Source: Deltaproteobacteria bacterium | GTDB lineage: Bacteria; JAMCPX01 | DNA length: 9,728 nucleotides | Direction: 5' to 3' | NCBI GenBank assembly: GCA_023489065.1 | Contig: JAMDCL010000028.1 | Location: 1 to 9,728, forward strand | Shown here: piece after piece, positions 1 through 9,728 of the stretch | Layout of the letters: every line of letters starts with the position of its first letter | Numbering within the stretch: position 1 is the first letter of the stretch | The notes under the pieces: generated by a model | Seen by the model: only the letters and a program-made list of their open reading frames with translations | Databases searched by the model: none | What the model was told of the DNA's origin: nothing | Position numbers and translations under genes: made by a program

Positions 1-593
1 ACAGCGGCATCCTCGAACTCCCGGTCGGTAAGCCGGTAAAACTCGACATAACGTCCGCCGATGTAATCCATGGATTTTTTATACCCGCGTTCAGGATAAA
101 ACAGGATGCGGTACCGGGTGTCGTCAATAGCGTATGGTTCATACCGGATAAAACCGGTACGTATGAGATATTGTGTACCGTTTACTGCGGGATCGGACAC
201 GCACACATGCTGTCGAAGGCCGTTATTGTGCCGGAAGCTGATTTCGACACGTGGTATAACGAAAAGCAGCAGGTGCCCGAACAGGCCAATGCTGCGGCTG
301 AACGGGGTGAAGGGCTTATCAAGCAGTACGGCTGTACGGGATGTCACACCGTCGATGGTTCACCTCTTGTCGGGCCGACCTACAAGGGGCTGTACAACAG
401 CAGGATTACAGTTATCACAAACGGGAAGGAACGGACGGTAACGGCAGATGATGCGTATATAAAACTCTGTATTCTGGATCCCGGGGTCAATCTGGTAAAA
501 GGTTTCCCGCCGCACGTTATGCCGTCATTCAAGGGCAGGCTTACCGGCCGGGACATCAAAGATATCATCGCGTACCTGAAAACATTGAAATGA
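1..593 (+). CDS. ctaC: Cytochrome c oxidase subunit II with fused cytochrome c domain (caa3-type), 5' end missing
   Basis: The frame is open from base 3, giving 196 residues of the C-terminal part; the N-terminal membrane hairpin lies outside the window. The product takes electrons from a quinol-cytochrome c chain and passes them through a dinuclear copper (CuA) site to the oxidase core on the outer face of the inner membrane. CuA ligands visible, in partial numbering: His23 in ADVIHGF, Cys58, Cys62, His66 and Met69 in CTVYCGIGHAHM. A cytochrome c domain follows, with heme motif CTGCH (Cys111, Cys114, His115) and probable axial Met173 in HVMPSF. CuA plus fused heme c is the hallmark of caa3 oxidases. 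The residue normally Glu between the two CuA cysteines is Val60, which is unusual. The stop overlaps the ctaB start (ATGA at 590-593). The symbol is by analogy; coxB is equally used. Confidence 0.93.
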   Translation, partial: SGILELPVGKPVKLDITSADVIHGFFIPAFRIKQDAVPGVVNSVWFIPDKTGTYEILCTVYCGIGHAHMLSKAVIVPEADFDTWYNEKQQVPEQANAAAERGEGLIKQYGCTGCHTVDGSPLVGPTYKGLYNSRITVITNGKERTVTADDAYIKLCILDPGVNLVKGFPPHVMPSFKGRLTGRDIKDIIAYLKTLK

Positions 594-1474
594 TCCAGCA
601 CATCAGGAATTACTTAAGGTTGTTTGTCGAGCTGAGTAAAGTACGGATCGCCCTGCTTGCCGCATTCTCGGCTGCAGCCGGGTTTATGACGGCGGCGGAC
701 AGGCTTTCCTCCGGTATCATAGCACCCGTGAGCGGCATTTTCCTTCTTGCATGCGGTGCGCTTTCCCTGAATCAATATCAGGAAAGAAATTCAGACGCAT
801 TGATGGACCGTACCAGGTCAAGGCCCCTTCCCTCGGGCAGGGTGAAATCCGTTACCGTAATCTTATTTTCATTGTCATGCATTGCCGCAGGTTTCCTTCT
901 CCTGTTCTTTTCTGTAAGTCTCGAGACGGCAGGTGTCGGCCTGTTTGCGGTTTTCTGGTACAACGCTGTTTATCTTATAATAAAGAGAAAGAATGCATTC
1001 GCATCCATTCCAGGCTCCATAACCGGGGCTGTTCCTCCTGTAGCGGGGTTTGAAGCCGGCGGCGGGCATTTAACAGACCCGCGTCTGCTGGTACTGGTGG
1101 TATTTATGGTTGTTTGGCAGATGCCGCATTTCTGGCTGATAGTTATGAAGTACGGAAAAGATTACGAAAAAGCGAGGCTCCCATCGCTGAGTCGAGTCTT
1201 TACAAAACGTCAATTGTCGAGGATCACGTTTCTCTGGATTATTTCCACGGCGATGATCCCGCTCATGATGCCCCTCTACGGCATAATAAGCCTGCGGGTG
1301 GCTGCACTCCTGCTTTTCCCCGTTACCCTGATACTATTAGGAGATATGGCGGAACTATTGATATTCAGGGTCCGGGAATATCCGGGCAAATATGATTTTA
1401 TGATTATAAACGCCTATGCCCTTATGGTTATGCTGCTGATGATAATGGATAAAATTCTGAAGCCCGTGAGTTAA
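590..1474 (+). CDS. ctaB: Protoheme IX farnesyltransferase (heme O synthase)
   Basis: This 294-residue polytopic membrane enzyme of the UbiA prenyltransferase family transfers farnesyl diphosphate to the 2-vinyl group of heme b, making heme O, the precursor of heme A for cytochrome oxidases. The first prenyl-diphosphate/Mg motif runs from Asn61 (NQYQERNSD, then MDRTRSRPLP), with the N-x3-E-x7-D arrangement seen in Cox10-like members. Further family signatures are IIKRKNAFASIPGSITGAVPPVAG (quoted in parts: KRKN at 132-135, GSITGAVPP at 142-150) and WQMPHFW (176-182) followed by KDYEKARLPSL. About eight or nine hydrophobic segments are visible and the length is normal. The start is fixed by the ATGA overlap with the oxidase gene; no clear Shine-Dalgarno is present, so translation is probably coupled. 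The gene ends on a TTAA that is also the ubiX stop. Confidence 0.94.
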   Translation: MIQHIRNYLRLFVELSKVRIALLAAFSAAAGFMTAADRLSSGIIAPVSGIFLLACGALSLNQYQERNSDALMDRTRSRPLPSGRVKSVTVILFSLSCIAAGFLLLFFSVSLETAGVGLFAVFWYNAVYLIIKRKNAFASIPGSITGAVPPVAGFEAGGGHLTDPRLLVLVVFMVVWQMPHFWLIVMKYGKDYEKARLPSLSRVFTKRQLSRITFLWIISTAMIPLMMPLYGIISLRVAALLLFPVTLILLGDMAELLIFRVREYPGKYDFMIINAYALMVMLLMIMDKILKPVS

Positions 1475-2052
1475 TTACCCCAGCGCGCGGAGAGCTCATT
1501 GGGAATGTCCAGTGCATCGAGTATCTTCGACACCATGAAGTTTATGATATCGTCCACGGACCCGGGCTTCTGATAAAACCCCGGCATAGCGGGCAGTATC
1601 ACGGCACCGGCCGATGCAAGCTCCAGCATGTTTTTCAGGTGCAGGGAGTGCAGGGGTGTTTCCCGCGGTACGATGACAAGTCTCCTCCGCTCTTTCAGTG
1701 CAACGTCGGCAACCCTTTCAATGAGTTTCGAGCCGCTTGCCGCGGCTATCCTGCCGAGTGTCCCCATGGAACACGGAACGATAACAACCTTGCTGGATTT
1801 ACCCTGTTTCGACGAACCGCTCGATAAAGAAGAAAATAGATTGTCGTTGTCATGGATGGTGAGAAGGCCCTTGCCGTTCGTGATTGCACGTACCGTGAAT
1901 TTTCTGCCTGTTTCATACTCAAACACTTTTTTCCCGGTCTCCGACGCTATTGCATCAACCGGGTATCCGTTGCCGGCAAGCCACCGGATCAGCGTCAGCG
2001 CATACACGGATCCGCTTGCGCCGGTGATTGCCACCACAACATGCCCTTTCAT
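1471..2052 (-). CDS. ubiX: Flavin prenyltransferase UbiX
   Basis: This 193-residue soluble flavoprotein joins dimethylallyl phosphate to FMN to give prenylated FMN, the cofactor of UbiD-type decarboxylases in quinone biosynthesis or aromatic-acid metabolism. Flavin-binding motif VVVAITGASGS is at residues 5-15, SETG at 38-41, the conserved PCSMGT at 93-98, LKERRRLVIVPRETPLHSLHL at about 119-139 (key residues Arg130, Glu131), and the PAMPGFY segment at 154-160. The family's C-terminal Arg-Trp is present (190-191). I chose ATG at 2050-2052, because family members begin just before the first strand; the frame stays open to 2127, but that upstream ATG falls inside the likely -35 box. An AGGA lies only 3 bases upstream, closer than ideal. 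No ubiD partner is visible in the window. A Ser/Lys-rich loop at about 74-88 is slightly longer than I expect. Confidence 0.93.
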   Translation of the reverse strand: MKGHVVVAITGASGSVYALTLIRWLAGNGYPVDAIASETGKKVFEYETGRKFTVRAITNGKGLLTIHDNDNLFSSLSSGSSKQGKSSKVVIVPCSMGTLGRIAAASGSKLIERVADVALKERRRLVIVPRETPLHSLHLKNMLELASAGAVILPAMPGFYQKPGSVDDIINFMVSKILDALDIPNELSARWGN

Positions 2053-2097
2053 TTGTCCTGTTTTATCGATGATCAAGGTCAACAGCCTCTTCTGACT

Positions 2098-2127
2098 ACG
2101 ATACATGAAACCGTAAAAGAATGTCAA
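2098..2127 (-). promoter_or_regulatory. Probable sigma70-type promoter for ubiX
   Basis: On the minus strand a perfect TTGACA (plus positions 2122-2127) is followed after 18 bases by TATCGT (plus 2098-2103; four of six consensus bases). Transcription would start near 2091, leaving an untranslated leader of about 40 bases before the ATG at 2052. The position supports the shorter UbiX start. Confidence 0.5.
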
Positions 2128-2159
2128 CCCTTCAAACCCGGTAATTCCTTAAGCATCTG

Positions 2160-2189
2160 TTGCGTTTTTTTGTGAGCTGTGAATATATT
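2160..2189 (+). promoter_or_regulatory. Weak candidate promoter for the barrel-cyclase-lipoprotein operon
   Basis: TTGCGT (2160-2165) and TATATT (2184-2189) are separated by 18 bases. The -10 is good (five of six) but the -35 matches in only three positions. It sits in the divergent spacer 33 bases before the ATG at 2222. No other better pair was seen in 2128-2221. Confidence 0.3.
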
Positions 2190-2221
2190 CAAAGAAAAGG
2201 CTGGATTGTTTCCGGGGGAAG

Positions 2222-3157
2222 ATGAGAAACGCGAAAAGACCATACATGGTAGTGTTCATAATGATCCTGTTGTTTGTAGCTGTGAATGCGCATGCCCAGC
2301 TTGGAGCAATCGGAGGCATAGCGTCAATCCAGGGACAAAAACAAACAACATTTCCCCTGTTTACGTTGACCGCAAAAACAGGCCAGCCCGATATTCTGGA
2401 CATGGGGTTTTATGTCTACTACGCGCAGGTAGACCGGTATATGGGAAAGGATTTTTACTCGGTTTTCAGCGGCAATACCACGGAACGGCTCCTCTACAAG
2501 ATCCTGAACGTCAGTTATAATTTAACATCAACCATGAATCTCTCCGCAAGCATCCCGTATGTCAATGCCGATGTCGGGCAATTAGTAACAAGCACGGCAA
2601 ATCCAGGAGGTACCTACAATATAACGCGCAGCAGCAGTGGATTGAGCAATCCCGCAGTCCGGTTCATGTATCAGTTCCTCAGTTCCCCGATGCTTGCCGT
2701 GTATGGTACAATCTATTTACCGACGGGTTTTATCGGGGTCGGATCCGGCGGAACGGACCTTGAGGTCGATCTGGCCTATACGAGGAATTTCAGCATTGTT
2801 CAATGGGATTCAAACATCGGATATAGATTCATAGGCGTTGATCCGGTAACACACAGGAAACCCAACAACGATATCCAGGTAGCCAATACTGCCTTCAGCA
2901 TACCTTTTGGTATGTCTCTGTCGGGTTTTTTCGAGATCAATGCGATGTACGAGGGGCAGGTTACGGATATCAATTTTGCAGGTACCAATAAGCCGTACAC
3001 CGTGCAACAGCTCTTGGTGAATCTTGTTCCCGGCATACGGTTAAGTATAACGCCCAATCTGTTCCTTACATCCGCTTTGAGATATTCTGCGTACAATACC
3101 TTCCTTTTCGGCTACCATTATATTTACACCATAGGTCTTGATTATCTTGTACTATGA
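2222..3157 (+). CDS. Outer-membrane beta-barrel protein, probably of the MetA/phenol-degradation-like (transporter) family
   Basis: The 311-residue product starts with a clear signal peptide: Arg/Lys n-region, hydrophobic core VVFIMILLFVA, and a likely cleavage after AHA (residue 25), leaving QLGAIGG. The mature part is rich in alternating polar and hydrophobic or aromatic residues (LYKILNVSYNLTSTMNLSASIPY, cited in parts: SYNLTSTMNLS at about 99-109) and has Gly/Asn-rich turns. It ends in alternating strands, YIYTIGLDYLVL. The repeated IPY, YLPTG and NIGYRF patterns resemble proteins annotated as MetA-pathway-of-phenol-degradation or transporter barrels; the family name is recognition by eye and says little about the real substrate. 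ATG 2222 has a GGGGG tract three bases upstream; ATG 2246 would remove the basic n-region and is less likely. The stop overlaps the cyclase start by ATGA, so the two are probably coupled. Confidence 0.75.
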   Translation: MRNAKRPYMVVFIMILLFVAVNAHAQLGAIGGIASIQGQKQTTFPLFTLTAKTGQPDILDMGFYVYYAQVDRYMGKDFYSVFSGNTTERLLYKILNVSYNLTSTMNLSASIPYVNADVGQLVTSTANPGGTYNITRSSSGLSNPAVRFMYQFLSSPMLAVYGTIYLPTGFIGVGSGGTDLEVDLAYTRNFSIVQWDSNIGYRFIGVDPVTHRKPNNDIQVANTAFSIPFGMSLSGFFEINAMYEGQVTDINFAGTNKPYTVQQLLVNLVPGIRLSITPNLFLTSALRYSAYNTFLFGYHYIYTIGLDYLVL

Positions 3158-4572
3158 ATAAACCGTTACTTCTCAGTCTTAAGGTAAAGCTTGGACTGCT
3201 TGTTGCAATGATCATATTGGTCATCATGGTTATCGTTGCGTATACATCGGTGATACGGCAGGAAAAAAGTATGCGCAATGAGATGAGGGCTAAGGCCATC
3301 AATATGGCGCAGATAACAGGTGCCCTTGCCCTCCTCGGCGGGAATGGAAGCGATCCATGGGCATTTGCAAAACAATTTCTGAAATTTGCGCCCCAGCTTG
3401 ACAATAATATCCTGTACGTCGTCATTACCGATGCAAACAACACAATCATCGATTCAGAGATCAACGCACCGCTGTTGACGAAGATAATCGGTCGCGACAG
3501 CGATAACCTGCAGCATGAAATACCGGAGGCCGTAAAGGCGCACCTCCTGAAATCAGAACGGAGTCAGAGTGAAGCTGTTTTTGAAAGGCTCGGTCACGTA
3601 CTGCCCATAGACGTTGTATTGAAACCCGCGAATAATCTCATAGGGACCATGAGTATAGGTTATTCACTCTACATGTTTGATTCATCCGTAAAAACAGCGA
3701 GGACCGTTACCCTGCTTTTTACCCTGGGTTTTATTGTCCTTGGTATCATGGCGTCCTTTGGACTGTCTCTGAATATAACGAAACCCATTTATAAAATCGT
3801 GGAAGCCATGAAGAATGTAGAGCAGGGGGATCTGAATCAGCACGTTGACGTAAAAACAAGGGACGAGATGCAAATGCTCGCTTCCAGTTTTAACTTCATG
3901 GTCGAAGGTCTGAAAGAACGGGAACACATAAAGCACACCTTTAAAAGGTATGTTTCCGAGCTCGTTGCGGACCGGCTTATCCAGGGAAGGGAGATCTCCA
4001 TTACGGGTGAGAGAAAAAACGCGACAATCCTGTTCCAGGATATACGGGGTTTTACCTCAATGTCGGAACAGATGTCACCCGAAGAAGTCGTCGGTATATT
4101 AAAAGAATACTTTACTGCAATGGTCGATGTGATCTTTGCCTACGAAGGCACCCTGGACAAGTACATAGGCGATGCGATTATGGCTGTGTTCGGGACACCC
4201 TATGCGCATACCGATGATCCCCTGCGGTCTGTCAAAACAGCCATAGACATGCAAAAAGCACTGAAGGCTTTAAATGATACGTGGGCGAAAGAAGGCAAAA
4301 ACAGACATCTTGCCGTTGGTTGCGGCATTGCAACAGGTCCTGTCGTGGCAGGAAGCATGGGTTCGGAGAAAAGGCTTGAATACACGGTTATAGGTGATAC
4401 GGTAAACCTTGCTTCGAGGATAGAGGGGCTGACCAAGGGCGGCCAGATACTGATATGCGAAAATACCTATAAAGCCATTAAAGACGATATGAGCATAAAA
4501 CCGCTGGATAAAGTATATGTAAAAGGCAAGAAAGAGCAGCAGCAGATCTATGAGGTTTTGTATGAATTATAG
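3154..4572 (+). CDS. Membrane adenylate cyclase, class III, with periplasmic sensor region and HAMP
   Basis: This 472-residue protein likely converts ATP to cAMP at the inner membrane in response to an envelope signal. Membrane segments are at about 11-31 and 184-205, enclosing roughly 150 periplasmic residues that may form a Cache-like sensor (inferred from size and position only). A HAMP linker follows (about 204-257, ITKPIYKIVEAMKNVEQGDLN region), then the catalytic domain (about 286-470). Metal-binding Asp296 (FQDIRGFTSMSE) and Asp340 (YIGDAIMAVFG), purine-selecting Lys336 and Thr411 (EYTVIGD), and transition-state Asn418 and Arg422 (NLASR) are all present. Lys with Thr at these places is the ATP-selective pairing of many bacterial enzymes, so an active adenylate cyclase is expected. 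The start overlaps the barrel gene by four bases with no strong Shine-Dalgarno; the 3' end overlaps the lipoprotein gene by 11 bases. Confidence 0.92.
   Translation: MNKPLLLSLKVKLGLLVAMIILVIMVIVAYTSVIRQEKSMRNEMRAKAINMAQITGALALLGGNGSDPWAFAKQFLKFAPQLDNNILYVVITDANNTIIDSEINAPLLTKIIGRDSDNLQHEIPEAVKAHLLKSERSQSEAVFERLGHVLPIDVVLKPANNLIGTMSIGYSLYMFDSSVKTARTVTLLFTLGFIVLGIMASFGLSLNITKPIYKIVEAMKNVEQGDLNQHVDVKTRDEMQMLASSFNFMVEGLKEREHIKHTFKRYVSELVADRLIQGREISITGERKNATILFQDIRGFTSMSEQMSPEEVVGILKEYFTAMVDVIFAYEGTLDKYIGDAIMAVFGTPYAHTDDPLRSVKTAIDMQKALKALNDTWAKEGKNRHLAVGCGIATGPVVAGSMGSEKRLEYTVIGDTVNLASRIEGLTKGGQILICENTYKAIKDDMSIKPLDKVYVKGKKEQQQIYEVLYEL
4552..4555 (+). promoter_or_regulatory. Ribosome binding site that fixes the lipoprotein start
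   Basis: GAGG lies six bases before the ATG at 4562, inside the end of the cyclase gene. It favours this start over the in-frame ATG at 4550, which would sit upstream of the site and add four residues before the basic n-region. Confidence 0.6.
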
Positions 4573-5266
4573 AAAGATTATTGTACTGTGTTCCGTTGCA
4601 ATGATTGCATCTGCAACGGTATTCTCCGCCTGTTCCAAAAAGAAAAATGAAGAAGACATCACCATCACCCTGAAAACAGAGGGTGCTGTTCCTGCCCAGC
4701 CACCGGCCGGACAAACACCCCGGCTGGAGGAGCAACAGGCAAAAGAGAAGCCAAATCCTGTACCGGGTAAAAGAGAAAGTGTTAAAGAGGTACGGCGAGA
4801 GCGGGGTTCGTCTTTGCCGCAGAGGAAGGTGCCCGGAATTAAGACAGAGCCCATACAACAACAAGTTGCAAACGCGGTACCCCAGCCGCCACCTCAGCCT
4901 TCACCCGAAGCTGTTGCACGGGAATTGATACGATCCATTATCAACAGGCAAAAGCAGGCGATGATAACAAAAAATGTGCCGCTTGCGCTTCAGGACATTG
5001 CCGGCAACAATGAGCAAAACAAGAGGGCACTGGAAGATTATTTTAACCGGTATGAAAAAATAGATGTCAATTTTTCGAATATTTCAATAAATGTTTCGGG
5101 CAGCAGCGCAACAGCGGTGATGGACCAGAGGACATCTATCGTTACCAAAAGCCTTATACCGCAGACGATAACGGAATTGACCAGGGTACAATGGACATTC
5201 ATAGAAGAGGACAATCGGTGGCTCATCAGCGGTACCCAGATACTGTCAAAGATGAAAGACAAATAG
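4562..5266 (+). CDS. Lipoprotein with Pro/Gln-rich linker and NTF2-like C-terminal domain
   Basis: The 234-residue product starts MNYRKIIVLC and has a hydrophobic stretch ending in VFSAC, a slightly unusual lipobox (Phe at -3) with Cys24 as the lipidated residue. Ser at +2 predicts outer-membrane sorting in a Lol system. Residues about 40-120 are rich in Pro, Gln, Lys and Arg and look like a disordered tether across the periplasm. The last 115 or so residues (from SPEAVARELIRSIINRQ) show a helix-helix-strand pattern ending VQWTFIEEDNRWLISGTQIL, typical of NTF2/SnoaL-like folds; the fold is inferred from pattern, not homology. The gene overlaps the cyclase by 11 bases and has its own GAGG, so it is very likely the last gene of the barrel-cyclase operon. 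A role in delivering or sensing an envelope signal for the cyclase is plausible but unproven. Confidence 0.8.
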   Translation: MNYRKIIVLCSVAMIASATVFSACSKKKNEEDITITLKTEGAVPAQPPAGQTPRLEEQQAKEKPNPVPGKRESVKEVRRERGSSLPQRKVPGIKTEPIQQQVANAVPQPPPQPSPEAVARELIRSIINRQKQAMITKNVPLALQDIAGNNEQNKRALEDYFNRYEKIDVNFSNISINVSGSSATAVMDQRTSIVTKSLIPQTITELTRVQWTFIEEDNRWLISGTQILSKMKDK

Positions 5267-5299
5267 ATTCTTCTTTCGTTCCAATTAGTATTCCAATGC

Positions 5300-5328
5300 T
5301 GTAGATGCCTACAAGACTGTTCTTTTTT
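5300..5328 (+). terminator. Weak candidate terminator after the lipoprotein operon
   Basis: A perfect but short hairpin TGTAG-ATGC-CTACA (5300-5313) is followed after several bases by a run of T at 5323-5330. The stem is only five base pairs and the T-run does not abut it, so intrinsic termination here is uncertain. Confidence 0.25.
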
Positions 5329-5348
5329 TTAATCAAACAGCAAGCAAA

Positions 5349-5377
5349 CTGACACACCTCTGTCACCAGCATATGTT
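5349..5377 (+). promoter_or_regulatory. Promoter with overlapping inverted-repeat operator before the AAA+ ATPase gene
   Basis: CTGACA (5349-5354) and TATGTT (5372-5377) are spaced by exactly 17 bases, a good sigma70-type arrangement. A perfect inverted repeat TGACA-N6-TGTCA occupies 5350-5365, covering the -35 box and the start of the spacer, where a bound repressor would block polymerase. Transcription would start near 5384, about 39 bases before the ATG at 5423. The WYL protein encoded downstream is the obvious candidate regulator, by inference only. Confidence 0.5.
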
Positions 5378-5422
5378 ATTGTAGCAGCAAAACATCATAA
5401 TAAAAGTAAGCGGAGGTGTAGT

Positions 5423-7219
5423 ATGAATAGCAATACAATGCTGGATGAGAATGCGTTTGAACTTTTGCTTGAGATAAATGATTTATACGAGAAGAAAAAT
5501 GCCGAAGGTATTGATTCTTCGGGCAAAGATACAGCTCTAAATGCAGCATTTCTGATAAAAAGCTCAATTTTTGAAGGGTATAATCTTGATGAAGATGACA
5601 TTAAAATCGTAGCACTTATTCTGGGGAATTATCTTGAAGGCAAAAAAGATATAGAGGCTGTTGAAATTATTAAAAGGATTTGGAAGGATAAAAAGGTTGT
5701 AAAGGCAGAACTAAAAAGGCTCTTAAAAATGAACAAATCAGGGATTCTGGATGTCGTTTGCGGCCCCACGACACACAACGGTAATGAAGTAACACTTTTG
5801 CGGTCAAGCTTAACGTTATCAGATACAATTTTAGGACGGATTTTTGGTACGGAGTCAAAAGCTCTGGAAAACGAAGAATTTGAGCCATACAAGGATAACC
5901 TTGAGTATCTTGCCGACCAGTTTGAAAGGGTAAGAATTCTACGCAAGCGAATAGACACGGAAGCCTCAACCTCAAGGTTGAAGGACAACAAGGCATTGGA
6001 AAGGATTGAAAACAGGATCGATCATCGTCTTAAAATAACCGGCAGTTTATTTCCCATGGAAGCATTTAAAAAAGAAAAGGGTTTGAGCCGGGAAGAAGAG
6101 CTGGTTATACTTGCGTTGCTGCAACAGGAAATAGTCGGGAACAACTTCTTCAATCGTGAAGAAGACATTATTGGTACAACCCAGTATGAAAGACTCTGTT
6201 ACAGGAAACTCCTTGAGGAAGACGGAATATTATTTAAAGAAAGGATTATTGAGCCAGTTTTCAATCCTTTCCAATGCCTTGGCAGCCTGCTCGGATTAAA
6301 GCTGAACAAGGATTTAAAAAACAGACTTTATGAAAAGAGAAAGGCTCGAGAAAATGTATTGGATAACCCCGACAGCTTCTTTGAAATAATAGAGCCATCC
6401 ATACCATTAGATAAGGTTGTTCTTCATATAAAAACCCATGAGCAAATAAACCTTGCGATTGATATGGTTAAAGGTGAGGTATCTGATCTTTTGAATGAAT
6501 GGGGCATAAAAAGTATTAATCTTATTCAGTCCACTTCAAAGAAAAGGCAGCATTCTGTAACAATGCTTTTTTACGGTATACCCGGGACTGGTAAAACCCT
6601 TACTGCAAACGCAGTGGCTTATGCCTTGAAGAAAAGGTTGTTGACCCTTGATTGCTCACGCATGTTAGGCAAATATGTTGGAGAGAGCGAGCAGAATACA
6701 AGAAAGATTTTTGACAGGTATAAAGAAATTTCTGGCATGATGAAAAACCCTCCTGTTCTTCTTTTGGATGAGGCTGACCAATTTTTGCACAAACGTATAA
6801 GTGCTCAGCATTCAACTGATCACATGTATAACCAGATACAAAATATCTTGCTTGAGCAATTGGAAAGGTTTGAAGGGGTGCTAATTGCCACAACAAATCT
6901 TGCAGACAATCTCGACCCGGCCTTTTCAAGGAGGTTTCATTATAAAATTGAGTTTAGACTGCCGGGGGTCAAAGAAAGGCTGAAACTCTGGCAGGTCCAT
7001 ATACCGGACAAGGCACCTGTATCAGAAGATGTTAATCTGCAATATCTTTCAGAAAGATACGGTTTAACCGGCGGACAGATTGCGGTTGTTATAAGGAACG
7101 CAGCCACTATGGCTGCAAAGAGGGGTGATAAAATTTCTATGCATGATTTCATAAGTGCATGTGAAGACGAGGTAAGAGGCGACTTTGGAGAGCGGGCAAA
7201 GGCAGCAATAGGGTTTTAG
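5423..7219 (+). CDS. AAA+ ATPase (classical AAA, SpoVK/Cdc48-like C-terminal module) with unrecognised N-terminal half
   Basis: The 598-residue protein has one complete AAA module from about 375 to 590. Walker A is GIPGTGKT (385-392), a pore-loop-like GKYVGESE is at 416-423 with aromatic Tyr418, Walker B is LLLDEAD (446-452), sensor 1 is TTN (490-492), the arginine-finger region is SRRF (502-505), and the classical C-terminal helix signature GLTGGQI is at 547-553. It should form an ATP-driven ring that threads or remodels a protein or nucleoprotein substrate. Residues 1-370 are charged and mostly helical with no family I recognise; stretches around 225-280 could hold a winged-helix fold, a guess from pattern. 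No protease or zinc motif is present, so it is not FtsH-like. GGAGG six bases before ATG supports the start. It opens the A+T-rich right-hand gene block and has its own promoter. Confidence 0.9.
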   Translation: MNSNTMLDENAFELLLEINDLYEKKNAEGIDSSGKDTALNAAFLIKSSIFEGYNLDEDDIKIVALILGNYLEGKKDIEAVEIIKRIWKDKKVVKAELKRLLKMNKSGILDVVCGPTTHNGNEVTLLRSSLTLSDTILGRIFGTESKALENEEFEPYKDNLEYLADQFERVRILRKRIDTEASTSRLKDNKALERIENRIDHRLKITGSLFPMEAFKKEKGLSREEELVILALLQQEIVGNNFFNREEDIIGTTQYERLCYRKLLEEDGILFKERIIEPVFNPFQCLGSLLGLKLNKDLKNRLYEKRKARENVLDNPDSFFEIIEPSIPLDKVVLHIKTHEQINLAIDMVKGEVSDLLNEWGIKSINLIQSTSKKRQHSVTMLFYGIPGTGKTLTANAVAYALKKRLLTLDCSRMLGKYVGESEQNTRKIFDRYKEISGMMKNPPVLLLDEADQFLHKRISAQHSTDHMYNQIQNILLEQLERFEGVLIATTNLADNLDPAFSRRFHYKIEFRLPGVKERLKLWQVHIPDKAPVSEDVNLQYLSERYGLTGGQIAVVIRNAATMAAKRGDKISMHDFISACEDEVRGDFGERAKAAIGF

Positions 7220-7244
7220 GGATGATGCTAAACAGATCAAACAG

Positions 7245-7271
7245 TTGACGATCACAGAGAGGTTTTATAAA
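7245..7271 (+). promoter_or_regulatory. Weak candidate promoter before the WYL regulator gene
   Basis: TTGACG (7245-7250) and TATAAA (7266-7271) are separated by only 15 bases, shorter than optimal. If used, transcription would start near 7278 and leave about 57 bases of leader before the ATG at 7336. The 116-base gap after the ATPase gene makes an internal promoter plausible. Confidence 0.3.
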
Positions 7272-7280
7272 AGGAAAGAT

Positions 7281-7346
7281 ATGCCACAATCCTTCCTGAG
7301 TTTCATGAAAAGATGCAAACCCTACAGGAGTTTCAATGCCATCTAA
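7281..7346 (+). CDS. Possible 21-codon leader peptide upstream of the WYL gene
   Basis: An ATG at 7281 is preceded by AAAAGGAAAG, a fair ribosome binding site, and opens a 21-codon frame reading MPQSFLSFMKRCKPYRSFNAI. It overlaps the first 11 bases of the WYL gene in another frame, so it could couple translation to that gene. The weak promoter at 7245-7271 would start transcription only about three bases before this ATG, so that promoter and this leader cannot both work as drawn; read-through from the ATPase gene would suit the leader. There is no composition or homology support. Confidence 0.2.
   Translation: MPQSFLSFMKRCKPYRSFNAI
7301..7310 (+). promoter_or_regulatory. Perfect 10-base palindrome upstream of the WYL gene
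   Basis: TTTCATGAAA is identical to its reverse complement and ends 25 bases before the WYL start codon. It is flanked by a direct repeat of GAGTTTCA at 7298-7305 and 7328-7335. It may be an operator for autoregulation; ten-base palindromes also occur by chance. Confidence 0.25.
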
Positions 7347-8340
7347 GTCCGAAAGATTTACCGATAAAACCAATAAGCTGCACAGGCTTATTTCCATCCT
7401 GCGTATGCTTGATATCCGTAATAGATGTACTCCCAAAAGCCTTGCAGAAGCGTATGGTACGACAGAACGCACCATCTATAGAGATATTGATGACCTTAAC
7501 TATGCGGGCTTTGCTATTAGGTTTGATAAGGAAGCAAACATCTATACTTTTGCAGACCCTGACTTTACGCTACGAGACCTTAATCTGAGTGAAGATGAAT
7601 TAACAGTTCTTTTAATCGGCAGGCAGGTTGCTCAAAACCTTGGCAGCCCTTTTGATAGGATATATCAGTCATTGATGAAAAAAGTTCGAAAAGATACAGG
7701 CAGAAAGACACAGGAGGCGGTTAAAAAGATCAATGGAACACAGCGTTTCTGGATAGGGCTTGACCCAATGGAGGAGTTTGAGAGTATCGAGCATCAGTAC
7801 AATATCCTGAACCAGGCAATGGATGAAAAGCATACTGCCGAGATAGTTTATAAGGCAATGTCTTCACAAAAAGAAGAGAAAAGAACTATCGCACCTTATG
7901 GCCTTATATTCAATAAAGGAATATGGTATGCGGTTGCGTATTGCAGCCTTCGCAAAGGGATACGGAGCTTTGCTCTCGATTGTATAAAGGATGCCGTAGT
8001 AACTGATGAATTTTATGAAATACCGTCTGAATTCGATCTGAAAGAATACCTTAAACCTGGCTGGCAAATAATAAGCAGCGGCAAGCCGGTCGAAGTGATG
8101 TTAAGGTTTAACAAAGATATCGCACGGTGGATAAAACGCCGCAAATGGCATCCGACACAGATAATAGAGGAACAAAAAGACGGCTCAAATATATTCAAGG
8201 TGATGGTGTCCGACACAAGTGAGATAAAATGGTGGTCATACAACTGGGCGCCGAACTGTGAGATTCTCTCTCCACCTGAATTGAGGAAAGAAGTAACAGA
8301 GGATATAAAGAAACTGGCAAAGATATATGAGAAAAGTTAA
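7336..8340 (+). CDS. WYL-domain transcriptional regulator (HTH-WYL-WCX)
   Basis: The 334-residue protein has an N-terminal helix-turn-helix (about 12-68; recognition helix around TTERTIYRDIDDL, 42-54). A helical connector leads to a WYL domain (about 165-230; APYGLI, then GIWYAVAYC with Trp197-Tyr198-Ala199, and IRSFALDCI containing the conserved Arg210). A C-terminal WCX extension ends in WWSYNWAPNCEILSPPELR (about 299-317). This is the standard architecture of WYL regulators, which bind DNA as dimers and are thought to sense a nucleic-acid or nucleotide ligand through the WYL pocket; they commonly control CRISPR, BREX and other defence loci. AGGAG (7326-7330) five bases before ATG supports the start. 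The gene lies between the ATPase and nuclease genes, so it probably regulates this cluster. It could act as repressor or activator. Confidence 0.92.
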   Translation: MPSKSERFTDKTNKLHRLISILRMLDIRNRCTPKSLAEAYGTTERTIYRDIDDLNYAGFAIRFDKEANIYTFADPDFTLRDLNLSEDELTVLLIGRQVAQNLGSPFDRIYQSLMKKVRKDTGRKTQEAVKKINGTQRFWIGLDPMEEFESIEHQYNILNQAMDEKHTAEIVYKAMSSQKEEKRTIAPYGLIFNKGIWYAVAYCSLRKGIRSFALDCIKDAVVTDEFYEIPSEFDLKEYLKPGWQIISSGKPVEVMLRFNKDIARWIKRRKWHPTQIIEEQKDGSNIFKVMVSDTSEIKWWSYNWAPNCEILSPPELRKEVTEDIKKLAKIYEKS

Positions 8341-8352
8341 GGAGGATAAATT

Positions 8353-9576
8353 ATGGCCATCTATTCTAACAGCAAATTAGGCATGTATGAAGCATGTCCT
8401 CTCAAATACAAGCTCAGGCATATAGATAAAATACAGGTTCCGGAAGAAGAAGGAATTGAGGCATTCCTCGGGATCCGTGTTCACGAGGCACTTGAGAAAC
8501 TATATAATGATTTAGGCTATTCAAAATTGTTAACACTTGAAGAATTACTCTCTTATTATAATGCAGAATGGGAGAAGAACTGGAATGACTCTGTTGTTAT
8601 AAGGAAAAAAGACTATTCTTCCCAAAACTACAAGGACACCGGCATAAGATGCTTAAAGGCCTATTACGAAAAATATAAGCCTTTTGATAAGGCAACAACC
8701 ATGGGGTCAGAGGTAAAGCTTAATTTTTCGTTAACTAAAGACGAAAGGTATAAAATGACAGGTTATATAGATCGTCTTGATAAGATAAAGGATGGGCAGT
8801 ATGAGATACATGATTATAAAACATCCAATAGTCTTCCATTGCAGGAACACCTTGATAACGATAGGCAATTAGCACTGTATGATATGGGAATAAGAGAGAG
8901 TTTTCCTGACATAAAAGAGGTCAAACTCGTATGGCATTATCTGACATTTGATACGGAGATGTCGTCTAAAAGGACACCCAAACAGATCGAAGATTTAAGA
9001 AAAAAGATGATCGCCCTTATTGATATCATAGAAGCGGACACTGAGTTTAAATATCGGGAGTCTGCTCTTTGTGGCTGGTGCAAATATCCTGAATATTGCC
9101 CTGCGAGAAAGCATCTGGTTAAGGTACAGTCCCTGCCTTCGAATCAAGTCCTGCTTGATGATGGTGTTAAGCTTGTAAGCAAGTATGTTGCAGCATGGGA
9201 AACATCTAAGCGTATAAATGAAGAAATAGGCAGACTGAAAGATGCCCTAATAGGGTATGCCAAAAAAAATGGCATAGAACAAATCGCTGGAAGCGATTAC
9301 GCAGTAAGGGTCAAGATAGGGGAAAAACTTAAATTTCCGGACACAAGCGATCCTCAGCGTTCAGAACTTGAAAAGCTTGTCAAAGCATCCGGTCTCTGGG
9401 AGCAGTTTTCAAAACTTGATACAGGTGAGTTATTAAGGTTTATGGAATCCGATAATGAAAACAAGGCATTAATTGAAAAAATAAAACAGTTCACAAACAA
9501 AGAAGAAAGCATAACAGTAAACAGACCGAAGGTGTTGAAGAAAGAAGGAGGGGGGGAGAATGTTAAAAGCAGATAA
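8353..9576 (+). CDS. PD-(D/E)XK nuclease, Cas4/AddB/RecB-like, with predicted 4Fe-4S cluster
   Basis: The 407-residue protein shows the full Cas4/AddB-type core: Cys15 (MYEACPLKYK), His44 (GIRVHEALE), Asp140 (TGYIDRLD), Asp154-Tyr155-Lys156 (EIHDYKTS), and the motif-IV-like RQLALYD with Gln172. The C-terminal cysteines Cys240, Cys243 and Cys249 (CGWCKYPEYC) would complete an iron-sulfur cluster with Cys15. Metal-dependent DNA exonuclease or endonuclease activity is expected, and all catalytic residues are present. Residues about 255-407 go beyond a minimal Cas4 (usually near 200 residues) and include a helical segment (SKRINEEIGRLKDALIGYAKK) and FP-containing strands of unknown role. No helicase domain is present. 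GGAGGA (8341-8346) directly after the WYL stop and six bases before ATG supports the start and an operon. No cas1, cas2 or CRISPR is nearby, so it is not called cas4. The 3' end overlaps the next gene by 17 bases. Confidence 0.9.
   Translation: MAIYSNSKLGMYEACPLKYKLRHIDKIQVPEEEGIEAFLGIRVHEALEKLYNDLGYSKLLTLEELLSYYNAEWEKNWNDSVVIRKKDYSSQNYKDTGIRCLKAYYEKYKPFDKATTMGSEVKLNFSLTKDERYKMTGYIDRLDKIKDGQYEIHDYKTSNSLPLQEHLDNDRQLALYDMGIRESFPDIKEVKLVWHYLTFDTEMSSKRTPKQIEDLRKKMIALIDIIEADTEFKYRESALCGWCKYPEYCPARKHLVKVQSLPSNQVLLDDGVKLVSKYVAAWETSKRINEEIGRLKDALIGYAKKNGIEQIAGSDYAVRVKIGEKLKFPDTSDPQRSELEKLVKASGLWEQFSKLDTGELLRFMESDNENKALIEKIKQFTNKEESITVNRPKVLKKEGGGENVKSR
9550..9556 (+). repeat. G7 homopolymer at the nuclease/unknown-protein overlap
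   Basis: Seven consecutive G lie inside the nuclease reading frame, just after the AAGGAG of the next gene. Loss of one G would join the nuclease frame to the next gene (GGG-GGG-AGA-ATG) with no stop between. Homopolymers of this kind are prone to slippage, but seven bases is near the lower limit. Confidence 0.6.
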
Positions 9577-9728
9577 ACATGGTAAATTTCCATCAGAAGC
9601 TGATATAGAAGATGTTCTTACATCCGCTGTTTTTGGATCGTTATATTATCTTGACGACAAAGAGGGTTCTCTGGGTCTATGCTTGCTCAAGAAATTTTTT
9701 GAAAAGGCAAGGTTTGGTTGTGAGCTGT
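9560..9728 (+). CDS. Unknown protein, N-terminal 56 codons only (cut by window end)
   Basis: An ATG at 9560 opens a frame that continues without stop past the window end. AAGGAG (9545-9550) nine bases upstream is a strong ribosome binding site. The visible part begins MLKADKHGKFPSEADIEDVL and continues with TSAVFGSLYYLDD, so the stretch reads E-D-x-L-T-S-x-V-F-G-x-L-x-Y-L. This conserved-looking pattern reminds me of the start of large unassigned proteins in restriction or defence islands, but I cannot name the family. The gene overlaps the nuclease gene by 17 bases and lies in the +1 frame relative to it, so it belongs to the same operon. Confidence 0.75.
   Translation, partial: MLKADKHGKFPSEADIEDVLTSAVFGSLYYLDDKEGSLGLCLLKKFFEKARFGCEL

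Follow-up and report, generated by a model that had tools for sequence, protein, structure and literature searches.

Introduction

Regulators with a WYL domain are known both as activators of the response to DNA damage and as repressors of phage-defence loci (PMC10693628). DriD of Caulobacter crescentus is activated by single-stranded DNA (ssDNA), straddles the -35 element at a fixed distance from the -10 element at promoters of nuclease and repair genes, and reportedly does not regulate its own gene (PMC12340889). The mycobacterial activators PafBC and SiwR bind between the -35 and -10 elements, and for the repressors of phage-defence islands a site covering the -10 element (CapW; PMC9122588) and one downstream of it (BrxR; PMC9122601) have been described. 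Here, a stretch of 9,728 nucleotides from a Deltaproteobacteria bacterium (contig JAMDCL010000028.1, referred to below as the window) was analysed, the right part of which carries genes for an AAA+ ATPase, a WYL regulator and a PD-(D/E)XK nuclease and the 5' part of a fourth open reading frame (ORF4). A palindromic, putative operator followed by an extended -10 element precedes the ATPase gene. Sequence comparison shows this cassette at promoters in loci that belong to a single clade of WYL regulators, those of the WYL genes themselves among them, and also near DNA-repair, nuclease and AAA ATPase genes of distant bacteria.

Results

A proposed palindromic operator with a fixed promoter context

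In the comparison of the two ends of the island, the palindrome TGACAYACCTCTGTCA was found repeated, 5' of the ATPase gene and 5' of a 71-aa ORF. The window alone is weak evidence for this palindrome, since a match with up to one mismatch appeared in 43 of 200 shuffles. Across loci (numbered L; genomes are numbered G), TGACA-N6-TGTCA was found upstream of the AAA gene in L001, L105, L004 and L006, upstream of both the nuclease gene and a second AAA gene in L097, and upstream of other genes in L002, L125 and L126, while genome G001 carried three such palindromes in total, two of them inside the island. In L126 (11088-17598), a truncated WYL gene was followed, over about 5 kb, by three exact palindromes and a mismatched one; a protein with a weak OB-fold match is encoded 3' of one of these sites.

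Exact sites in loci fetched by protein, with orientation assigned by hand, gave a set of 24 oriented sites, in which the palindrome was followed by TGNTATNNT at a fixed place. By position, T28 was present in 23 sites, A29 and T33 in 22 each, T25 in 20, T30 in 17 and G26 in 15, and TA stood 11 nt past the palindrome in 21 of the 24. With T28 taken as -12, the half-sites fall at about -39 to -35 and -28 to -24 and flank the -35 position. In the window the cassette of operator and extended -10 element spans 5350-5382, in agreement with the preliminary description of this DNA, which had proposed a promoter belonging to the block itself; the palindrome was absent from that description. No such operator was described in the accessible portions of the WYL literature searched, which covered few subscription papers.

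The full cassette pattern, CTGACA-N6-TGTCA-N11-TAT, was then counted with the reversed pattern as control. It gave 18 matches in 12 of the 245 genomes of the phylum of G002 versus 1 reversed match, and, in a second scan, 14 matches in 11 of 395 genomes versus 2 reversed.

The cassette follows one clade of WYL regulators

A match to the WYL protein at E 1e-20 or better was present in 75 of the 245 genomes, and 40 WYL flanks were examined, picked by WYL rank after the motif had been fixed (G215, at rank 6, and G116 were left out because their loci were already part of the analysis; two lower-ranked hits, G080 and G054, were skipped in favour of a third, G119). The boundary between the best-ranked and the next group was our own choice and was drawn before sites were looked for. 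Of the 11 loci in the best-ranked group (29-59% identity), 6 carried exact sites, with 8 sites in a total of 152 kb. In the next group (26-30% identity) this held for 1 locus in 29, with 1 site in 549 kb, located in L171 37 nt 5' of the WYL gene (Fisher test, 0.0007). The reversed palindrome gave no exact match in either group. On a tree of 49 WYL proteins all 15 site-bearing rows fell into one 20-row clade (support 92/91), with none among the 29 rows outside; L171, the sole site-bearing locus of the next group, lies inside this clade. After removal of the rows that had found the motif or had been found by it, the counts were 6 of 11 in the clade versus 0 of 27 outside (Fisher test, 0.0002). 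L159 (site-bearing) and L167 (without a site) were too short for the tree count.

Seen from the side of the cassette, 10 of the 32 matches had in their flank a WYL gene that belongs to the clade or part of such a gene (L158, L159, L097 and L004 were known beforehand), 2 stood beside a remoter WYL gene, and 20 were without a WYL gene in the examined flanks. Exact sites were located 37-62 nt 5' of WYL genes in L158, L159, L171, L245 and L247. Genome-wide, G002 carried three cassettes, two before small ORFs upstream of an AAA gene and one before the WYL gene.

Genes downstream of the cassette

With distances measured from the palindrome to the start codon, the genes 3' of the cassette, in addition to those for AAA proteins, the nuclease and WYL regulators, encode a double-AAA protein (55 nt in L162), a RecB/AddA-like helicase-nuclease (56 nt in L215), an ERCC4 protein (53 nt in L251) and an ARPP-1 protein followed by the Cas4-like DUF2779 (59 nt in L252). 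In L158 the site lies 16 nt 5' of an 82-aa ORF, behind which an SMC/Rad50-like protein is encoded. Looser associations were observed with uracil-DNA glycosylase (UDG) family proteins (L157, 37 nt, at a site with one mismatch; L125, 239 nt, a match below the Pfam cut-off), an Ogg glycosylase (L216, 169 nt), AddB-like proteins (L221, 198 nt; L225, 119 nt, one mismatch) and HsdM (L253, 203 nt 3' of the cassette). Targets unrelated to DNA were an FtsZ-like protein with a weak twin-arginine translocation (TAT) signal two genes on (L164), a GGACT protein (L097, one mismatch) and a CoA-binding protein (L242), and several genes downstream of cassettes had no Pfam match. By our tally, the cassette lies near genes of DNA repair or recombination at least as often as near known defence genes. 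Close to a WYL gene and operator, FtsZ/tubulin-like genes were also observed at L162:3619-4650 and L164:3022-3735, and a weak TAT signal was present in one of the two.

Comparison with described WYL regulators

The WYL protein of the window matched PF13280 (2e-18), the WCX domain (5e-17) and HTH_11 (9e-8), and shares with DriD the order of winged helix-turn-helix (wHTH), WYL and WCX domains. DriD structures were also its best matches in a PDB sequence search (7tzv, 2e-10; 9pfq, 6e-10). Further likenesses to DriD are the palindrome overlapping the -35 element with constant spacing to an extended -10 element (the 24 oriented sites, set against PMC12340889) and a small regulon with nuclease and repair genes. 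The two differ in that the DriD consensus is ATACGAC-N7-GTCGTAT and the sites of the window type are TGACA-N6-TGTCA, that the latter also occur 5' of WYL genes, and that the window protein is encoded within an island with AAA and nuclease cargo. The protein may work like DriD but is not assigned as DriD, since the site consensus differs.

PafBC was matched through the WYL and WCX domains (6sj9, 1e-9), together with a weak HTH_PafC match; PafBC is a heterodimer, the PafC chain of 7p5x scored 0.55, and the window has a single gene and a two-sided palindrome. With BrxR and CapW the window shares an accessory island containing defence-like genes and palindromic operators, but the protein itself is not closely similar to them (CapW from 3e-4, with 7tb5 as the best, to 0.5; BrxR 0.0095), and they bind at or 3' of the -10 element, in contrast to the site over -35 seen here. 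An initial repressor-like reading of the operator position was dropped after the comparison with DriD (PMC12340889).

An accessory island between housekeeping genes

The features of the block are given in Table 1. ORF positions and Pfam matches agree with the preliminary description, which had listed four rightward ORFs of these families, strong ribosome-binding sites, an overlap of nuclease and ORF4 and a bias towards A+T. The ATPase and WYL genes are separated by 116 nt and the WYL and nuclease genes by 12 nt, and nuclease and ORF4 overlap by 17 nt.

Table 1. Coordinates of the island features in the 9,728-nt window.
Feature	Position	Strand	Basis and remarks
Left edge of island, approximate	5267..5273	.	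Directly past the stop of the lipoprotein-like gene; flank matches empty-site relative G009 to 5270
Palindromic operator TGACACACCTCTGTCA (TGACA-N6-TGTCA), proposed site of the WYL regulator	5350..5365	+	Cross-locus motif comparison
Extended -10 element TGTTATTGT	5374..5382	+	Fixed spacing, 11 nt from operator to TAT
GGAGG ribosome-binding site of the AAA gene	5412..5416	+	Sequence
AAA+ ATPase gene	5423..7219	+	598 aa, N-terminal winged-helix-variant domain; PF00004, PF22977, predicted model and fold search
HTH-WYL-WCX regulator gene	7336..8340	+	334 aa; PF08279, PF13280, PF25583; PF19187 HTH_PafC weak, below its cut-off; PDB sequence search
RecB/AddB/Cas4-type PD-(D/E)XK nuclease gene	8353..9576	+	407 aa, four Fe-S-type cysteines; PF12705
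ORF4, 5' part	9560..9728	+	Full length in a relative (L085:218-1030), 270 aa, PD-(D/E)XK-like

The G+C content was 39.5% in window 5274-9728 versus 48.1% in 1-5266, and in L085 38.9% in the island part versus 49.0% outside. In G009, the flank is 98.4% identical to the window (579 bp), ribD starts 28 bp beyond the stop of the lipoprotein-like gene and the island is absent. Of the 8 genomes having both the lipoprotein-like gene and ribD, 4 have them side by side (G009, G010, G007 and G006); they are apart in G011, G012 and G013, and in G001 the island sits between them. Because of the low G+C content relative to the flanks and the absence from the close relative G009, the block is assigned as an accessory, foreign-looking island with its own promoter, and the coordinates give it a size of about 6.8 kb. 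Among nine genomes of the same phylum, the AAA protein (E 1e-40) was present in two (G001 and G010), the nuclease in one and a WYL protein with E of 1e-10 or better in three; the AAA gene of G010 lies on another contig, where similarity to the window begins at 5346, just 5' of the operator.

The genes to the right, for which the preliminary description had called, could be listed through a related metagenome-assembled genome (MAG DX4.bin27). Its locus L001 is 96.0% identical to the window across 8 kb, the nuclease gene reaches the contig end, and the remainder opens contig L085, where the end of the nuclease is followed by the overlapping ORF4 (270 aa), ORF5 (225 aa), the 71-aa ORF, a remnant with a trace of ORF6N, and ribD, beyond which further riboflavin-type genes were named by eye. 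Pfam and PADLOC scans of ORF5 gave no match. At the right edge of the island, the ORF6N remnant lies between the two copies of a 27-nt direct repeat (96%; L085:1958-1984 and 2557-2583), possibly the scar of a mobile element. To the left of the island, window 3154-4572 encodes a membrane protein that has a HAMP-type region and a domain judged by eye to be a class III adenylate/guanylate cyclase; its family matches were kinases and one kinase/cyclase fusion.

A prophage replication block was rejected, as the block is bordered by housekeeping genes to the left and to the right. No viral relatives of the nuclease were found in a single-protein scan limited to close relatives, and the WYL protein had matches in 12 phage records, with 22-30% identity in the 10 listed. 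A plasmid module was likewise rejected: 1991 plasmid records matched the AAA protein, none of them across more than 80% of it, and 8 matched the nuclease, at 22-29% identity.

The nuclease and ORF4

The nuclease matched PF12705 (PDDEXK_1) with E 1e-28 and 101 bits against a cut-off of 22. C15, C243, C249, H44, D140, D154-Y-K156, Q172 and Y176 were invariant in 30 aligned rows, the window included, and C240 was kept in 29 of the 30, which bears out the earlier description of a catalytically complete enzyme with four cysteines. By motifs and family score it is placed in the PDDEXK_1 (RecB/AddB-like) superfamily, and it carries the H-D-DYK-QxxxY motifs of AddB/RecB and Cas4 nucleases, with which it also shares the layout of one N-terminal and three C-terminal cysteines. 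It differs from them as a stand-alone protein of about 400 aa below the curated Cas4 and AddB cut-offs: these were the nearest NCBIfam families, both far short of the cut-off, and the Cas4 models TIGR00372 and PF01930 gave 25.2 bits (cut-off 65) and 18.3 bits (cut-off 22.7). A Cas4 of a CRISPR locus is considered unlikely on these scores and because no regularly spaced repeats were found in window 5267-9728 or L085:1-2700; the island proteins covered by the scan gave no cas1 or cas2 match, on the right side within some of the ORFs of a stretch of about 13 kb. The nuclease was found in 9 of the 245 genomes (E 1e-60), in 5 of them without a WYL gene in the examined flank, two of these on contigs shorter than 8 kb.

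In ORF4, D86 and E104-x-K106 were invariant in five aligned rows, a PD-(D/E)XK-like pattern, and PADLOC gave a weak match to the candidate family PDC-M15A (5e-6). Only five relatives, 73-100% identical (one identical), were found among 5.8 billion proteins, a PDB sequence search returned nothing below 0.09, and the predicted model (mean predicted local distance difference test score, pLDDT, 47) was too poor for a fold search.

The AAA+ ATPase and its relatives

The ATPase had been described as intact. The AAA domain (PF00004, E 1.6e-30) follows an N-terminal PF22977 WHD match (5e-7). In Walker B (window 6767-6772) the window encodes D-E, with D449 as the first acid, and N stands at this place in each of the 24 other rows of the alignment, even in a protein 97% identical to that of the window; the family norm is thus N-E, an atypical Walker B. 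In the predicted model (mean pLDDT 76) the AAA domain groups with proteasomal, PAN and FtsH motors in a fold search, and the protein is thus more likely a remodeller of proteins than a DNA motor. Its AAA domain also matched the IetA ATPase of PADLOC (2.6e-30), but only over this domain and with 103 bits against the curated cut-off of 510, and a peptidase partner as in IetA had no match among the island proteins scanned.

Relatives of the ATPase at 35-40% identity (L007-L080) are common in Campylobacterota. Many of these loci have nuo genes close by, and in 10 of 67 Campylobacterota loci the gene immediately 5' is nfo (endonuclease IV, by eye); the 74 loci L007-L080 contained one palindrome, not located 5' of the AAA gene. 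Another relative opens a candidate defence island (L003:3969-12956), in which the genes behind it encode a 208-aa product, DUF2130, a GmrSD-like protein and an SNF2 helicase of DpdE/ZorD-like type.

Conservation of the gene order

The preliminary description had asked whether the ATPase-WYL-nuclease triplet is conserved across genomes. It is not: this order was seen only in one lineage, that of the window and L001 (the AAA protein was not queried in the 245- and 395-genome sets), and a conserved system of these three genes was rejected. Proximity of AAA and WYL genes recurs in L004 and L006. WYL and nuclease genes are adjacent in L097, and L104 retains a remnant of this arrangement. In G002 all three genes are present on separate contigs, the WYL gene being cut by a contig end; at L104:6472-6534 a C-terminal WYL remnant lies directly 5' of a 57%-identical nuclease gene, and the WYL start ends another contig. 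In L006 (5783-6781) the WYL gene has one in-frame stop near its start and is likely a pseudogene, beside an AAA gene that retains the operator. The suggestion that the genes act together is strengthened, but what is stable is the pair of regulator and operator and not the triplet.

Discussion

The block could well be a horizontally acquired accessory island whose operon processes damaged or foreign DNA under the control of its own WYL regulator, a reading held at about even confidence. A DriD-like activator sensing ssDNA is favoured for this regulator because of the site over -35 and the closest PDB similarity to DriD. The WYL protein would bind TGACA-N6-TGTCA as a homodimer, and ssDNA arising from damage, stalled forks or phage replication would load onto the WYL domains, as in DriD, whereupon the dimer straddling -35 would recruit RNA polymerase. 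Since the WYL gene lies behind the AAA gene in one operon, the response would be self-amplifying. The AAA ring may then remodel a protein-DNA complex, and trimming or destruction of DNA would fall to the Fe-S nuclease and ORF4.

Several observations weigh against this picture. Of the DriD stretch R-S-W-R-L-D-R the window protein keeps only the first arginine (R210), so that with this ligand-side stretch mostly lost the ligand may differ; the similarity to PafBC is mixed (6sj9 versus 7p5x); and cassette sites precede WYL genes here, unlike the case of DriD's own gene. A palindrome over -35 is also compatible with blocking of the polymerase, and the choice between activator and repressor is not set by sequence. 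Given the 116-nt gap, a single transcript from AAA through WYL is not certain. Five of the 20 clade rows had no exact site in the examined flank, and some cassette matches are due to chance, 3 of the 32 lying inside ORFs of more than 400 aa. An ORF start downstream, found for 19 of the 32, hardly exceeds the background of 45% and does not discriminate. In 50 Campylobacterota genomes there was 1 match and 0 reversed, a per-base rate equal to that of the 395-genome scan by a rough sum of sizes, so that this control does not support specificity; support for that scan comes from the reversed control and the WYL neighbours.

The same genes might instead form a phage-defence island with a BrxR/CapW-like repressor, in which the WYL protein is an off-switch lifted by a ligand made during infection and the ATPase and nucleases attack phage DNA. 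The known WYL regulators of phage defence are repressors (PMC10693628), a palindrome in this position can block polymerase, and AAA-relative loci contain an integrase (L004) and GmrSD-like and DpdE/ZorD-like genes (L003). PADLOC candidate families also occur (PDC-M15A in ORF4, PDC-S57 in a gene of L004, PDC-S11 in the gene behind the nuclease in L097), and one cassette precedes an HsdM gene. This alternative is nevertheless considered rather unlikely, as the window protein matches CapW and BrxR worse than DriD, their sites are placed differently relative to -10, and genes of named repair families stand near the cassette no less often. The label of a candidate defence module had been attached to the locus in the preliminary description. 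The accessory low-G+C island, its promoter and the defence-like genes near AAA relatives speak for it, and the unconserved triplet and the frequency of repair genes against it; a damage-inducible DNA-processing regulon fits better, and defence is possible as one use of a DNA-damage-type switch. The reluctance to assign a known system was upheld, PADLOC on the ATPase, WYL protein, nuclease, ORF4 and ORF5 returning at most single shared domains or candidate families.

It is improbable that the palindrome belongs to another regulator, such as a LexA-like damage repressor or a global factor, with the WYL genes as mere targets. The 20 cassette matches without a WYL gene nearby would be expected under it, though 4 of them are in genomes with a clade WYL elsewhere (G002, G015 and G215), and it is countered by the presence of sites tracking the WYL tree, by their position close to WYL genes in five loci and by the three cassettes of G002. 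More improbable still is a chance assembly of unrelated cargo, for instance in a decaying mobile element, in which nuclease and ATPase have separate housekeeping roles. The frequent AAA relatives of Campylobacterota near nuo or nfo, the often solitary nuclease, and the ORF6N remnant with its direct repeat would suit it; the recurrence of one operator before AAA genes in four loci besides the window and before the nuclease in L097 would not, nor would the short gap and the overlap that tie WYL, nuclease and ORF4.

Tentatively, and with less confidence than the damage-processing island itself, the cassette TGACA-N6-TGTCA + N11 + TATNNT may be regarded as a transferable plug for one WYL clade, through which any carrier gene would join an ssDNA-inducible response, the cargo including AAA rings, Cas4/AddB-like or ERCC4 nucleases, a RecB/AddA-like helicase, DNA glycosylases and a methylase. 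If true, this would be an SOS-like, LexA-independent regulon uniting DNA repair and anti-phage cargo in several phyla and moved horizontally. A single WYL clade whose readable operator stands over repair and anti-phage cargo alike would connect the damage activators (DriD, PafBC and SiwR) with the defence repressors (BrxR and CapW), and scanning for the cassette would offer a homology-free way to list genes of little-studied phyla as candidates for induction by damage or phage.

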